A DNA stretch of 64,000 nucleotides from Gemmatimonas phototrophica (GTDB taxonomy: Bacteria; Gemmatimonadota; Gemmatimonadetes; Gemmatimonadales; Gemmatimonadaceae): the NCBI RefSeq assembly GCF_000695095.2, contig NZ_CP011454.1, forward strand, positions 2,294,001 through 2,358,000, in the 5' to 3' direction. This document shows, piece by piece, positions 12,608 through 17,833 of this stretch. Both the position numbers and the translations under genes were made by a program. Every line of letters begins with the position of its first letter. Positions within the stretch are counted from its first letter, which is position 1. Below the pieces are notes generated by a model. That model saw only the letters and a list, made by a program, of their open reading frames with translations, searched no databases and had not been told where the DNA came from.

Positions 12608-12835
12608 TCAACTGCGAACGAGAAACTCGAGGATCACGGCGTTCAGCCGGGCATCATCCATGTCGTCGTCCCAACCGGGCGCCACCAGCGCGATGACTCG
12701 ATGTGCACCGGAGTTGCACTCAATCGCCACCGTGTCGGGCGCCATGGTGGCCGCGACTTCACGTTGATCTACCGGTACTTCAGGAAGTTCGAGGCAAATC
12801 CAGGTGGTGCCCTGCGAATCCGACACGGTGCGCAC
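12608..12835 (-). CDS. small conserved-looking protein, unknown function
   Basis: A 75-aa acidic protein that I cannot name. It has regular hydrophobic alternation (TWICLELPEV, TVAIECNSGAHRVIALVAPGWDD) suggesting a small beta-rich fold and no signal peptide. The GTG at 12835 is preferred because GGAG lies 5 nt before it. An ATG at 12913 would add an Arg/His-rich leader and begins exactly at the edge of the 58-bp repeat. It lies between the decayed tRNA-Leu element and the dap operon. If the element inserted upstream of it, the original promoter may have been displaced. Confidence 0.6.
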   Translation of the reverse strand: MRTVSDSQGTTWICLELPEVPVDQREVAATMAPDTVAIECNSGAHRVIALVAPGWDDDMDDARLNAVILEFLVRS

Positions 12836-12911
12836 CGCAGCTCCGACGAAAGGGATGAAAAAACAGTGGTGCGTGGCTCGACGGCGGCGATACCGACGTG
12901 GCCGTGCGTCC

Positions 12912-12969
12912 ATACCCGGAGCGGGACTCGAACCCGCACATCCTCGCGGATAAGGGATTTTAAGTCCCT
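12912..12969. repeat. distal attachment-site copy, 58-bp direct repeat of the tRNA-Leu 3' part
   Basis: Identical over 58 bp to 15649-15706. It covers the anticodon stem-loop, variable arm, T arm and acceptor 3' strand of tRNA-Leu(TAA), but lacks the 5' half, so it is not a functional tRNA. Such partial copies mark the far end of elements inserted into tRNA 3' ends. Confidence 0.92.
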
Positions 12970-13108
12970 TTTCAATAGACGCGGGACCGGTCTTCAGTTA
13001 TCCGCACCGAGTAGAAAACGAGAATACCCACAATCTGCATCGGGCGCCATCGACCCCGAACGAAGCCCGTACATCCCCCGAGGCGTCACCCGAGGTTATA
13101 GACGGGGC

Positions 13109-13339
13109 ATGTCGCGCGTCCGTATCGACGACGCCGGGTGCTGGATCCGGCACGAGGCTAAGAATAGCCAAGGGTATGGCTCGATTCGCGTCGGAGGCCG
13201 GAAAGGCCGTTCCGTCTTGGTGCACCAGGTCATCGCCGAGTCGCGATACGGCGCCATCCCATCAGATCGCATGGTTTGCCACACCTGCGAAGTCCGTACA
13301 CGCCGAAGCCGCATATACTCTCCGATAAAAGGGCGGTGA
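13109..13339 (+). pseudogene. HNH endonuclease fragment, frameshifted
   Basis: Residues from ATG 13109 read as the front of an HNH homing-type nuclease: DDAGCWIRHEAKNSQGYG, then VLVHQVIAESRYG and MVCHTCEVR, which carries the first zinc-Cys pair and the His of the fold. Intact relatives continue with a C-x-NPxHL-type motif. Here the frame diverges after CHTCEVR to a short basic tail. In the neighbouring frame TPKPHILS-like codons appear, so a small indel near 13290-13300 is likely. The open frame extends upstream of 13109 without a good start. The stop overlaps the arm of the next terminator. Presumed inactive. Confidence 0.65.
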
Positions 13340-13363
13340 CATCACGCTGATATCACCGCCCTT
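13325..13363 (-). terminator. Rho-independent terminator of the exported-protein pair
   Basis: A perfect 11-bp stem (arms 13329-13339 and 13353-13363) runs on the minus strand into TTTTATC, 17 nt after the stop at 13381. Confidence 0.85.
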
Positions 13364-13380
13364 GGGAAACCGAGGCCTGA

Positions 13381-13842
13381 CTACCGCTTCGTCGGCATGG
13401 GACTTAAGTCGCTGCGAAGCACCTTGCGGCTCAGTACGCGCTGTCCGTCTGGGCTCACAGTAAGACGGAAAAGTTCAATTCCCATCATACCAGGTTCGAT
13501 GTTGTTGAGCTCAAGCCTGACATCAATAAACTGCGTGCCCGCCGAGTCTTGGAGCGGACTCACTCTGAAGAAACGCCCCGTCATCGGACGCGACTTCGAT
13601 AACGAGCTCTTGAATTGCGCATAAGCGGCGTTGCCATGGGACTTGCAGGCCACACTCGTGTCCGCACGAAAACACTGGGGACGTGGTACGAAACTGTACG
13701 ACGACAGTTCCGAACCGAAACTCTCGATTACGGCGCGCACGAGCGCAGGAGAGGGTGTGGACTTTTTCCCCGATGGTTGTGCGTGCGACACACTGGCGCA
13801 AGCCAACAGCAGAGCCGAAAGCTGGAAACAAAGAGTTCGCAT
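13381..13842 (-). CDS. secreted protein of unknown function (element cargo)
   Basis: A protein of 153 aa. Residues 1-21 form a Sec signal peptide (MRTLCFQLSALLLACASVSHA, likely cut before QPSG). The mature part is small and basic, with two Cys (PQCF, VACK) that could form a disulfide and a beta-rich C-terminal half (FIDVRLELNNIEPGMMGIELFRL). I recognise no family. The ATG at 13842 is chosen because it begins the signal peptide; the open frame upstream reads through the neighbouring gene in another frame. The gap to the upstream lipoprotein gene is 34 nt and both lie between one promoter and one terminator, so they probably form a two-gene operon. Less GC-biased than its chromosomal neighbours. 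Confidence 0.72.
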   Translation of the reverse strand: MRTLCFQLSALLLACASVSHAQPSGKKSTPSPALVRAVIESFGSELSSYSFVPRPQCFRADTSVACKSHGNAAYAQFKSSLSKSRPMTGRFFRVSPLQDSAGTQFIDVRLELNNIEPGMMGIELFRLTVSPDGQRVLSRKVLRSDLSPMPTKR

Positions 13843-13876
13843 GGCTGGGATTGGTAGAGGGAGCCGCGCGTTCGAC

Positions 13877-14641
13877 TTACCGGCTGCAGTTTGGCGCCTG
13901 AGCATAGATTTGCGTATGTAAGTAGTTTCCAAGGTGCCCTGCCTCATGGCGTGCGATTTGAACGAACTCCGCGTCTGTTGGAGTGTATCCGCTTTTCCGT
14001 TTCCCGCTAAGCACGACCTGTTGTGCCGCATACTGGGTTCTTCCGAGTGATTCAGTCGTGTCATCCACCATAAACCAAGTTGATGACTTGTATATGGCAA
14101 ATTGCTGGGCGGCGTTGTACAGCGCATAACCACTCCGAAAGCAGTATTCGCCAGTGTTCGAGTTCATCATTCGTAGCGCAGTGGCCATGATTGAGTCACG
14201 AAGTGCTCCTTGAACGGGGGTAAGGATGCACGTCGAAGATCCGGGTGGATCGCAGTGGGTGATTAGTTGCTGAATCGTTGGTTGTGGCTCCCCCCCGCCA
14301 CCGCAGTCTACCGTGCACGTTGAACCACCGCCCTCAGAACCTCCACATGGCATACCCGGATTACACGAGCCGTCATCGCCGGGGGTTGGAGCCTCAGGGT
14401 CCTCCGGGAAGTAATCGTCGCATTGCGGTTGCGACGGATCTTCCTCGCACGGCTGATCGTACCACTCGCATGGCCAATAGTAGGTTCCTGTAGACGTGAC
14501 TGTGTGGGTGCAAGACCAAGACGCTCGTGGAGACAACGATACCTCTGCATCGGCCGGCGCGGTGGGGTTTTCGCCACACGCAGTTGTGATGGATAGAACT
14601 AGCATACACAACGTCAATGATACTCTTCGAAGCAAAAACAT
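13877..14641 (-). CDS. lipoprotein with HExxH zinc-metalloprotease motif (element cargo)
   Basis: A protein of 254 aa. The N-terminus is a lipoprotein signal (SLTLCMLVLSITTAC, Cys at about 22). Next comes a long Pro/Gly/Asp/Cys-rich spacer (residues 45-125) with many Cys pairs (e.g. DPSQPQCDD, CNPGMPCGG, CTVDCGGGG). The C-terminal ~100 residues include IARHEAGHLGNYLH, an HExxH followed by a third His six residues later, the pattern of a zinc-metalloprotease active site. The spacing HExxHx5H differs from the metzincin HExxHxxGxxH. The protein ends soon after the motif, so the fold is compact. Good promoter (14689-14717) and GGAGGA Shine-Dalgarno at 14648-14643. Proteolytic activity and substrate are unproven. 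Confidence 0.78.
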   Translation of the reverse strand: MFLLRRVSLTLCMLVLSITTACGENPTAPADAEVSLSPRASWSCTHTVTSTGTYYWPCEWYDQPCEEDPSQPQCDDYFPEDPEAPTPGDDGSCNPGMPCGGSEGGGSTCTVDCGGGGEPQPTIQQLITHCDPPGSSTCILTPVQGALRDSIMATALRMMNSNTGEYCFRSGYALYNAAQQFAIYKSSTWFMVDDTTESLGRTQYAAQQVVLSGKRKSGYTPTDAEFVQIARHEAGHLGNYLHTQIYAQAPNCSR

Positions 14642-14688
14642 ATTCCTCCGATCTGGACTATTACAATTCGCGCCATTTGCGCGAAGCC

Positions 14689-14717
14689 ACGATATGAAGC
14701 GGTACAGAAGTCGTCAA
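14689..14717 (-). promoter_or_regulatory. sigma70-like promoter of the lipoprotein/secreted-protein operon
   Basis: TTGACG (14717-14712), 17-nt spacer, TATCGT (14694-14689) on the minus strand, about 48 nt before the ATG, within an AT-rich stretch. One of the best promoter matches in the window. Confidence 0.65.
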
Positions 14718-15002
14718 TAGAAACCTTGTGCAGATTTTTTCCGCTGAGTGCCTGCATCGCAGTTCTGTTTAGTTTCGACTGACCGGTCTATACCATGTTT
14801 AGCACGCCCCTTATTGTTTGTTCGCATGCAGCACGCCGTTGAGTGCGAGGACGCCGACGCCGACGTCACGGTGGTAGAAGACACGAGCACACACGTGTTG
14901 GCCGCGATCACGTGCACGTCGGCGTTGCGGGAGCGACTCGCGGCGCGGAAGGCGCCGGAGCCGGTGGCTGAGCGTGTGCCGGGCGAAGAGGGCTGATCGT
15001 CC

Positions 15003-15176
15003 ATGTCCAAGCCCGCCGTCGTGCGCTACATCGCCGCACTCTCCCCCACCGAAAGCGGACGCCTCCTCAATGCGCACGAGGTGAGCGACAGCGTGTTCGG
15101 TGGGCAGGTGAGCAAGAAGTGGGTATGTGCCAAACCTGGGCACTATTGTCACGTGGTCGGGCGGATAGTGCTCTAG
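15003..15176 (+). pseudogene. excisionase/AlpA-like DNA-binding protein, truncated
   Basis: A 57-aa frame begins MSKPAVVRYIAAL and contains LLNAHEVSDSVFGGQVSKKWV, which resembles the winged-helix DNA-binding motif of MerR/AlpA-type excisionases (LLxxxEVAxxxxxxxxxVxRWI). The expected continuation (a basic wing then an acidic tryptophan-bearing helix) is missing; the frame instead ends in an unrelated tail. Its place next to the integrase remnant and the tRNA fits an xis gene. Assignment rests on motif resemblance only. Confidence 0.45.
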
Positions 15177-15186
15177 ATACGTAGGC

Positions 15187-15479
15187 GAAATCCGCGCATG
15201 GGTGGGATCTTTGCAACAGGTGGCGTCCGGAGTTAGCGAGCTTCGGTTGCATGACATCGTGCGCCTGTTCGGACAGACCGCCGCTGACGAGAACGTCTCC
15301 GCGGTGCATAAACACGCACAAATGCGACATTGCGACCCGCGCATGACCGGCCGGTACAAGATGCCTGCGCAAGCACGCCAGGCGGCTGAAGCAGTCGCCC
15401 GTCGGCTTGGCATCGTAAAGCCGACGAAAAAAAGCCCGCGAAGGGCGATGGACTTAATCTGGGGACTATTGTGCCCTAA
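15187..15479 (+). pseudogene. tyrosine integrase C-terminal remnant
   Basis: The translated stretch LRLHDIVRLFG ... MRHCDPRMTGRY matches the C-terminal catalytic part of tyrosine recombinases (normally LHDLRHTF ... LMRHxDPRMTxRY). The catalytic His-x-x-Arg is disturbed, the Tyr is kept, and the rest of the protein is absent. After the Tyr the frame continues RQAAEAVARRLG; a shift near 15425-15440 would restore an ending read as GDGLNLGTIVP with a stop at 15477. It abuts the tRNA-Leu copy, as integrases usually do. Certainly non-functional as it stands. Confidence 0.6.
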
Positions 15480-15648
15480 CTGCCAGCGAACGACCCAATG
15501 CCGGGGGCCGACCGATCTGGCCATCGCGAGCTCGCTCACGCTCAGTGAGGTCCAAATGAATGTAGCCCGTCCACCATTTCAGGGGATACGTCCCCTGAAT
15601 CCTCCCCCGACCGCGACAGACTGAGTCGGGGGCGAGGATCGCAAGTCT

Positions 15649-15706
15649 ATACCCGGAGCGGGACTCGAACCCGCACATCCTCGCGGATAAGGGATTTTAA
15701 GTCCCT
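15649..15706. repeat. proximal attachment-site copy inside tRNA-Leu
   Basis: Identical to 12912-12969 over 58 bp, and forms the 3' portion of the intact tRNA-Leu gene. Identity stops at the 5' end of the anticodon stem, consistent with crossover in the anticodon-loop region. Confidence 0.92.
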
Positions 15707-15733
15707 CGCGTCTACCGGTTTCGCCATCCGGGT
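15650..15733 (-). tRNA. tRNA-Leu(TAA)
   Basis: 84 nt with a seven-pair acceptor stem (ACCCGGA/TCCGGGT), anticodon stem AGGGA/TCCCT around loop CTTAAAA (anticodon TAA), a long variable arm as in class II tRNAs, and GGTTCGAGTCC in the T arm. The 3' CCA is not encoded. It is the insertion target of the neighbouring element. Confidence 0.95.
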
Positions 15734-15778
15734 GTTGTGCACCACCACGTGCACCGTCCAACGCCGACCGACAGGCGC

Positions 15779-15807
15779 AGCTTACTCCGTTGGCCCGCCA
15801 AACGCAA
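15779..15807 (-). promoter_or_regulatory. possible promoter of tRNA-Leu
   Basis: TTGCGT (15807-15802), 17 nt, TAAGCT (15784-15779) on the minus strand, 46 nt before the tRNA. It just touches the tRNA-Gly terminator. Moderate match only. Confidence 0.35.
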
Positions 15808-15834
15808 AACGGGAGCGCCAGAGCGCTCCCGTTT
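15806..15834 (-). terminator. Rho-independent terminator of tRNA-Gly
   Basis: Perfect 11-bp stem (AAACGGGAGCG / CGCTCCCGTTT) with a 6-nt loop; on the minus strand it ends in GTTTTGCGTTT, 37 nt past tRNA-Gly. Confidence 0.75.
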
Positions 15835-15870
15835 GCCAACACACCACCGTTCCGGCATAACGCCGAAGAG

Positions 15871-15943
15871 AGCGGGAAACGGGACTCGAACCCGCGACCC
15901 CAACCTTGGCAAGGTTGTGCTCTACCAACTGAGCTATTCCCGC
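15871..15943 (-). tRNA. tRNA-Gly(GCC)
   Basis: 73 nt. Acceptor stem GCGGGAA/TTCCCGC, D arm TAGCTCAGTTGGTAGAGCA, anticodon stem CAACC/GGTTG with loop TTGCCAA (anticodon GCC), T arm CGGGTTCGAGTCCCG. No encoded CCA. Confidence 0.96.
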
Positions 15944-15975
15944 GTCTACCGACCACCGCGTCGGCAACGGACAGG

Positions 15976-16004
15976 ATTCTAGCCAGCCCGAGCCCCCCGG
16001 ACAA
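15976..16004 (-). promoter_or_regulatory. strong sigma70-like promoter of tRNA-Gly
   Basis: TTGTCC (16004-15999), exactly 17 nt, TAGAAT (15981-15976) on the minus strand, 32 nt before the tRNA 5' end. Confidence 0.65.
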
Positions 16005-16015
16005 GCACCCCCGGG

Positions 16016-17833
16016 CTAATCCCGCAACCCCAGCGCGTGAGAGGCGTACCAGAGCGTATGCGCCAGAAGTCCGGCCAGCGCCGCATCACCGCCGTTCCCA
16101 CAGCCCCGACCATCGGCGTCTACCACCTCCGCCGCGATGCCACCATCGAGCGGTGCCCGGCGAAGCCAGCCCATGACTTCCTGTGCCTCGGGACCCAGGA
16201 GTCGGGCCACCTGCAGCAACAGCGGATTGACGGACGTCAACTCGACGGCAGTGGCCCGCACGGTGCGCCGGAAAAGGGAATCATCACGATCCAGCGCATC
16301 ATAGAGGGGCAGCCACAGCAAGGAACCGGCGGCGTCGTCGTGGAGTGCCGCCCCGCCTACCAGATCTACCGCGGTGGCCAGCCGGGCCTTTTCGCCCCGC
16401 TCGACAGCGAAGTGCCGGCGGATGGCCGCACGAACGGCGGCCGGATCTTCCACGGCAGCCGCCGCCTCCTCATCCAGCGTGCGCCGGAACACATCCAGCG
16501 CCATGGCGACGGCGGCATTCCCATGCAGCGTGAATGGGAAGGGCGCCGGTGCTCCCGATGCCGTAACTTCGGTGGAATACAGCGGGATGCGTTCATCACG
16601 TCGCGCCACGATGTCGTCGTGGCTCAGATACAGCGTATCGGCGACCACGGGATCTTCCACCAGCTGATCGTCCCCCGTGTCGCGGATGTACCGGTCGGTG
16701 GCGATGGCGAAGGCGGCCGGCCCCTCTACCGCGAAGCCCGGCTGAAAGAGCGTGCCGTCGAAATAATGGACTCCCTGCCCCGGCGCATATCCGTGGAGTT
16801 CACAGGCTCGGACCAGCAACTCGCGCGCAAGGCCCGTATCCGCCAGCTGAATCGCCGGCAAGGTCCACATGAGTGCTTCCCAATCGCGCACCGTGCACCC
16901 AATACCATGCCACGGCGCCCGTGAGCGCATGAGATAATAGTGCGCATCATCGAGACCGCGTCCGACCGCATAGAAATACGCAAAGAGCAGGTTGCGGTTC
17001 AGCAACCGGTCGATGTTTTCATTGCCGGTGGTTTGCTCAAGGGCGGTCAGCGCTTCCCGGGTGGCCGTCAGCAGCGATCGCCATCCACGGCGCCTGAGGA
17101 CACTCACCGTCGCCTGCGCACCGTCACGCTCCGGCCCGACCGCGATGTAAAACGCGGTCTGCACGGCCTTTCCGGCCGGCGCCGTTACGGTGCGGCGCAA
17201 GGCAAACGTGCGCGGCTCGCGCGAAGCGCCCTCGGCCACCTCTACCGTGGCTGGTCCATCACAGCCAATCGCCACGGCCACCATGCCGGGAATCGCGGCT
17301 CCCTCGAGCAGGACGACCTCGTCGTCTCCCCGGCTGGCCACATGCTCATCATCGAACGGGCGCGCAGTGCGCACCCGTTGCTGGCGATGCCCAAGGGTCC
17401 CCTCCATGGCCAACTCAATGGCGACATCGACCGTCCCACGATTCTCCACGGCCAATGTGTAGACGGCGCCCGCCATGTCGGCGTCCCGGCCATACGGGGC
17501 AAAGATTGTCCCACGCACGACGAGCGAACCCACGGTGCACGTAAAGGTGGGTAACCAACCATTCGCCCGTTCCCACGCGATCCCCTCGGCCGCGAGCGCC
17601 CGCACTTCTCCCCCCACCCGCAGCACCGGCCCCATCAAGGGTGCACCGTGCCCGCTCACAAAATCGGGGGCCCCCGCCACCTCAATGGCCGCGCGCGCGC
17701 CGCGGTGCAGCACGCCGAGCGCATGTATGGCCCCGTCCATGGGGTTGATACACGGAATGGTGAGCCAGTGATTACCGGTCAGCTGCCAGGGAACGGACGG
17801 AATGGGACGCATGGGGACCAAGGCGTCGCGCAT
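16016..17833 (-). CDS. six-hairpin glycosidase-like protein
   Basis: A protein of 605 aa without a signal peptide. The first ~230 residues are beta-rich (repeated VxxLAVENRGTVDVAIELAMEGTLG-like sandwich strands). The rest is helical with GIGCTVRDWEALMWTLPAIQLADTGLARELL and YAPGQGVHYFDGTLFQPGFA, the pattern of an alpha/alpha six-hairpin toroid as in glycogen-debranching, GH15- and GH63-type enzymes. Asp/Glu pairs in VRDWE and GVHYFDG are candidate active-site residues. I cannot name a GH family or substrate. Start taken as the ATG at 17833; the ATG at 17812 (MRPIPSVPW) is equally plausible. The nearest same-strand neighbour downstream is tRNA-Gly; it appears monocistronic. The 196 nt between this gene and the divergent next one hold nothing clear. 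Confidence 0.55.
   Translation of the reverse strand: MRDALVPMRPIPSVPWQLTGNHWLTIPCINPMDGAIHALGVLHRGARAAIEVAGAPDFVSGHGAPLMGPVLRVGGEVRALAAEGIAWERANGWLPTFTCTVGSLVVRGTIFAPYGRDADMAGAVYTLAVENRGTVDVAIELAMEGTLGHRQQRVRTARPFDDEHVASRGDDEVVLLEGAAIPGMVAVAIGCDGPATVEVAEGASREPRTFALRRTVTAPAGKAVQTAFYIAVGPERDGAQATVSVLRRRGWRSLLTATREALTALEQTTGNENIDRLLNRNLLFAYFYAVGRGLDDAHYYLMRSRAPWHGIGCTVRDWEALMWTLPAIQLADTGLARELLVRACELHGYAPGQGVHYFDGTLFQPGFAVEGPAAFAIATDRYIRDTGDDQLVEDPVVADTLYLSHDDIVARRDERIPLYSTEVTASGAPAPFPFTLHGNAAVAMALDVFRRTLDEEAAAAVEDPAAVRAAIRRHFAVERGEKARLATAVDLVGGAALHDDAAGSLLWLPLYDALDRDDSLFRRTVRATAVELTSVNPLLLQVARLLGPEAQEVMGWLRRAPLDGGIAAEVVDADGRGCGNGGDAALAGLLAHTLWYASHALGLRD

Follow-up and report, generated by a model that had tools for sequence, protein, structure and literature searches.

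A probable decayed prophage in tRNA-Leu(TAA) of Gemmatimonas phototrophica, reduced to a stub with two intact exported-protein genes

The Gemmatimonas phototrophica window, by which we mean the whole stretch of 64,000 nucleotides analysed (2,294,001–2,358,000 of the 4.72-Mb single-contig genome), holds an island at 12970–15644 between an intact tRNA-Leu(TAA) gene and a displaced copy of the 3′ part of that gene. The features of the locus, in window coordinates, are as follows.

12608–12835, minus strand: host gene; in relatives with the empty site, homologues 55–87% identical come directly after tRNA-Leu
12908–12969, minus strand: distal att repeat (attR side), a displaced 3′ fragment of tRNA-Leu(TAA), from the repeat search
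13109–13297, plus strand: truncated remnant of a phage-type HNH endonuclease near attR, from a PHROG match
13329–13363, minus strand: terminator-like hairpin after exp1 (16 bp, folding z = −4.87)
13381–13842, minus strand: exp1, open reading frame for a predicted secreted protein of 153 aa
13877–14641, minus strand: exp2, open reading frame for a predicted lipoprotein of 254 aa
14717–14689, minus strand: weak sigma-70-like promoter match before exp2 (9/12)
14825–14996, plus strand: C-terminal tail (last 56 residues) of a RecT-like single-stranded-DNA annealing protein, from sequence identity to a RecT of the genus
15003–15176, plus strand: remnant of a small gene (its start) between the RecT tail and the integrase, from a weak match (E = 0.009)
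15202–15447, plus strand: C-terminal remnant of a tyrosine recombinase, about 70 of about 375 aa (E down to 8.8e-8)
15645–15706, minus strand: tRNA-proximal att repeat (attL side), running from the anticodon arm to the 3′ end, from the repeat search and alignment
15650–15733, minus strand: intact tRNA-Leu(TAA), from ARAGORN and alignment with relatives

The two direct repeats agree at 61 of 62 positions and, because the lone mismatch lies at 12911/15648, share a perfect core of 58 bp (12912–12969 and 15649–15706). A sequence-only reading of this DNA had proposed a small genomic island bounded by perfect 58-bp repeats at 12912–15733, and the alignment bears out both the repeats and the coordinates. 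In the tRNA sense, the distal copy matches the last 57 positions of tRNA-Leu at 57 of 57; the first 27 positions match at 6 of 27, which is chance level, and the similarity ends where the anticodon stem begins on its 5′ side. The distal copy is therefore a 3′ fragment rather than a second tRNA, and it lacks the 5′ 27 nt; that reading had described it as missing the 5′ half. The intact tRNA-Leu was presumably rebuilt at attL, its 5′ part being chromosomal and its 3′ 57 nt element-borne. It is adjoined by tRNA-Gly(GCC) at 15870–15943 (ARAGORN).

A tRNA 3′ fragment displaced to the 3′ side, with its orientation kept, is the signature of a tDNA-borne island according to Islander (PMC4383910). Like the Islander islands, the locus combines a regenerated, full-length tRNA with its cognate 3′ fragment in that orientation and on that side, contains integrase sequence, and exceeds the 2-kb length filter; its repeat starts at the anticodon arm, as in the anticodon-centred site class A of that study. 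Unlike those islands, most of the element has been deleted and the integrase is a remnant: the interval holds the C-terminal part of a tyrosine integrase alone, which a strict open-reading-frame filter would reject.

We compared the tRNA-Leu/tRNA-Gly segment, the proteins of the flanking genes and larger regions with 60 relatives, the close ones among which belong to the same genus. About 21 congeneric Gemmatimonas genomes carry tRNA-Gly, tRNA-Leu and then a homologue of the 12608–12835 gene and/or an argE/dapE-like gene, which is the empty site that had been predicted (a single tRNA-Leu, then the 12608 gene). No second tRNA-Leu copy was present at the 17 empty-site loci tested, and the window flanks, when joined at the repeat, are colinear with the empty site of one congener (G018) over 250 nt at 77%. 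The island is absent from all 60 relatives, the RecT tail alone finding a match elsewhere. The distal repeat might instead be a decayed duplication of the tRNA gene, as the near identity of the two copies could suggest, but the match breaks off abruptly at the anticodon stem, the sequence across the joined flanks agrees with the empty site and a foreign integrase scrap sits at the expected end. Given the empty sites and the abrupt loss of the 5′ part in the distal copy, we rejected duplication, which we consider extremely improbable. Relatives without an empty site and a duplicated tRNA gene, the two outcomes that would speak against insertion, were thus both looked for and not found; the empty sites, the lack of a second tRNA-Leu copy and the colinear joined flanks together exclude them.

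The integrase remnant reads into the intact tRNA-Leu. Part of the frame at 15202–15624 aligns at 31–44% identity to about the last 60 aa of tyrosine recombinases from Gemmatimonadota, most of which have frames of 370–490 aa; it is their RLHDLRHCFGQWA...RHxxPxMTRRY to which it aligns. In the C-terminal motifs the remnant keeps its His and Tyr; HDLRH (HxLRH) of the relatives reads HDIVR, so that a catalytic arginine is gone in addition to the N-terminal three quarters. With these parts absent, the stub cannot be excised by its own integrase. The proposal that an integrase remnant abuts the intact tRNA is thereby confirmed, and the footprint of a tyrosine-recombinase element, which the same reading had recognized, stands on the repeat and tRNA geometry, the empty sites and the integrase scrap. 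The remnant is bracketed by two copies of a 15-nt direct repeat, CTGGGSACTATTGTS, at 15136–15150 and 15459–15473 on the plus strand, and the sequence occurs nowhere else in the 4.7-Mb genome. The pair may be arm-type sites of the integrase or the scar of a duplication.

Immediately upstream of the integrase remnant lie further scraps in the same orientation. The small-gene remnant is possibly an excisionase or helix–turn–helix protein, an identity left uncertain by its single weak match. The RecT tail is 73% identical in amino acids and 76% in nucleotides to the end of a RecT encoded on a 48.6-kb contig (C25, JAAVWC010000025.1; L082/L087) of the metagenome-assembled genome Gemmatimonas sp. UKL202c (G006). 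The full protein there matches RecT families strongly (PF03837, E = 3.3e-35; phrog_148, E = 1.2e-62). At the DNA level the match starts abruptly at 14825, which is a deletion end. A RecT profile scan of genome_contigs recovered, besides the UKL202c contig, just a single distant RecT from Campylobacteraceae, and IMG/VR scans with the RecT tail and with RecT found no relatives. One further match to the tail (G005:C47) was rejected as fortuitous: it covers 40 bp of an unrelated gene region. At the other end of the island, the HNH remnant matches phrog_826 (E = 4.8e-14) and phrog_1872 (E = 3.7e-13) up to residue 63–64, its match to PF13392 being sub-threshold.

The UKL202c contig encodes a RecE-like exonuclease, RecT, an integrase, a head scaffold protein, a major head protein, a minor tail protein and a tape-measure protein; the head, tail and tape-measure genes identify it as a tailed phage. 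It also carries a DNA methyltransferase and an SbcC-like gene. As in the window, RecT is followed by the integrase in this phage, which differs in its type of integrase, in its structural genes and in lacking a tRNA over the part tested (L082).

Intact elements occupy the same tRNA gene elsewhere in the genus. In G001 (L064), the order is RecT (14225–14956), intact integrase (15204–16397) and tRNA-Leu(TAA) (16402–16487), the integrase (PF00589) abutting the tRNA 3′ end and reading towards it; RecT, SbcC-like, SSB and HNH genes and a weak RecE/YqaJ relative lie upstream. G021 (L065) has an integrase and a RecE-like exonuclease at the same tRNA-Leu(TAA). Its integrase is 42.6% identical to that of G001 and matches phrog_1 (E = 2.6e-28), with a Pfam score slightly below the cut-off. 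Both elements share with the window the tRNA gene and an integrase directed towards the tRNA 3′ end, and in G001 RecT adjoins the integrase, so that the order and orientation of RecT, integrase and tRNA-Leu equal those of the window remnants. Unlike the window remnant, the G001 and G021 integrases are intact, and they are not closely related to it; exp1 and exp2 were not found in either element. Since intact integrases lie at this tRNA in both genomes, phage-like elements have repeatedly used tRNA-Leu(TAA) as an attachment site in Gemmatimonas, a genus with little-described phages.

Between the att sites, the island thus holds a phage-type RecT tail, an HNH remnant and an integrase remnant, the make-up of a defective prophage. 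The island ORFs tested gave no match to structural, packaging or lysis families, and we therefore speak of a remnant and not of a complete prophage. Some integrative conjugative elements, too, carry RecT, HNH and integrase genes, and a decayed element of that or another non-phage kind would leave an identical att anatomy. No structural phage gene is left in the window, the integrase of the UKL202c RecT phage is not of the window's type, and the relatives of the window integrase mostly adjoin other tRNAs (tRNA-Lys, tRNA-Met and tRNA-Leu(CAA)). Against such an origin, the RecT tail closely resembles the RecT of a Gemmatimonas tailed phage, the HNH remnant best matches phage families and recombination genes (RecE/RecT and SSB) are present in the same-site elements of G001 and G021; we judge a non-phage island to be improbable. 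An element inserted site-specifically at tRNA-Leu with repair of the tRNA and was then deleted to a stub, its integrase being destroyed. There is strong support for a temperate phage as the inserted element, and the island is very probably a decayed prophage.

The tyrosine recombinase of a temperate phage would have inserted it into the segment of tRNA-Leu(TAA) from the anticodon arm to the 3′ end. Because its attP would have carried the same 57 nt, the tRNA was rebuilt at one end and the original 3′ fragment displaced to the far end, as the repeat and the empty sites show. Internal deletions then took away almost the whole element; what persists is the ends of the integrase and RecT and a broken HNH nuclease, while an oppositely oriented two-gene unit for exported proteins survived as intact open reading frames. 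The heavy deletion put forward in the sequence-only reading is supported, with scraps of three to four virus genes remaining; the phage identity, the intact same-site elements and the finding that the passenger genes lack relatives go beyond it.

The composition and codon use of the island are foreign. Its GC is 0.579, against 0.649 and 0.660 in the flanks, and within it exp1 and exp2 (0.561 and 0.545) differ from the RecT scrap (0.70) and from the host (0.65). GC3 of the two exported ORFs is 0.63 and 0.55 versus 0.71–0.79 in large flanking genes, and their codon adaptation to the flanking genes is 0.53 and 0.49 (0.67–0.76 for the flanks).

Of the passenger genes exp2 and exp1, both antisense to the phage scraps, the second lies 34 bp downstream of the first. 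A simple estimate puts the chance of open frames of such length, given the composition, at 3e-5 and 0.003. Both proteins start with predicted export signals read from the sequence, in agreement with the earlier suggestion that two exported-protein genes were kept. The signal of exp2 ends in a lipobox-like ...ITTAC and is accompanied by a Cys/Gly-rich linker and, near the C-terminus, by HEAGHLGNYLH, which we take to fit the extended zincin pattern HExxHxx(G/N)xxH. No Pfam, PHROG, NCBIfam or PDB family matched a protease domain in exp2, and a single-sequence fold was uninformative (pLDDT 38.6), so the putative metalloprotease has the motif and no recognisable catalytic domain. No relatives of exp1 or exp2 were found in 248 relatives or in the genome_contigs and viral_contigs scans, and none of exp2 in 395 genomes of the phylum; weak matches were rejected on inspection as chance or low-complexity Gly/Cys. 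PADLOC assigned neither to a defence family. The pair had also been credited with its own promoter and terminator. The hairpin is strong (z = −4.9), although a strict terminator scan did not list it because only four T follow on the minus strand; the promoter is weak and at chance level, since 1.2 such 9/12 sites are expected.

Morons, as defined in PMC7380047, are likewise separate gene units of different GC and opposite orientation with a terminator-like hairpin, and by this analogy exp2-exp1 may be moron-like cargo of the prophage; a moron would further have its own promoter and independent regulation, be expressed in the lysogen and benefit the host. As the genes were found in no phage or genome searched, their arrival with the phage is something we infer. 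Their GC, unlike that of both host and RecT scrap, and their antisense orientation to all phage scraps would also suit genes that came in by an insertion of their own, or as an older island pair already resident at this tRNA, and were enclosed by the att sites of another element; no repeats bound the pair inside the island, no transposase was recognised there, and such differences in composition are usual for morons too. We regard this separate origin as possible but doubtful. Returning to cargo of the prophage, the pair may have outlived the phage because it is useful or may simply not yet have decayed. It is rather unlikely, on present evidence, that exp2-exp1 is a phage-delivered unit kept by selection, with a zincin-motif surface lipoprotein and a secreted partner of undescribed families; such a unit might, for example, exclude other phages at the surface or act on the envelope.

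A tRNA-integrated phage that has decayed to a stub is a known kind of locus and textbook biology, and the island would be a neat, small case in which the passenger genes are all that survives whole; these genes, without known relatives, are the exception.

Other variation at the site was seen among the congeners. A ~1.3-kb insert with a long ORF lies between tRNA-Leu and the 12608-gene homologue in G020 (L055, 3710–5016); it has no tRNA repeat and was rejected as an instance of the window element. In G001, G004 and G021, tRNA-Gly and tRNA-Leu are ~4.3 kb apart (L052, 5500–9700; L053, 5300–9700; L054, 5600–10000), and in G001 a response regulator with an HD domain and a large hybrid sensor kinase are encoded in the gap.
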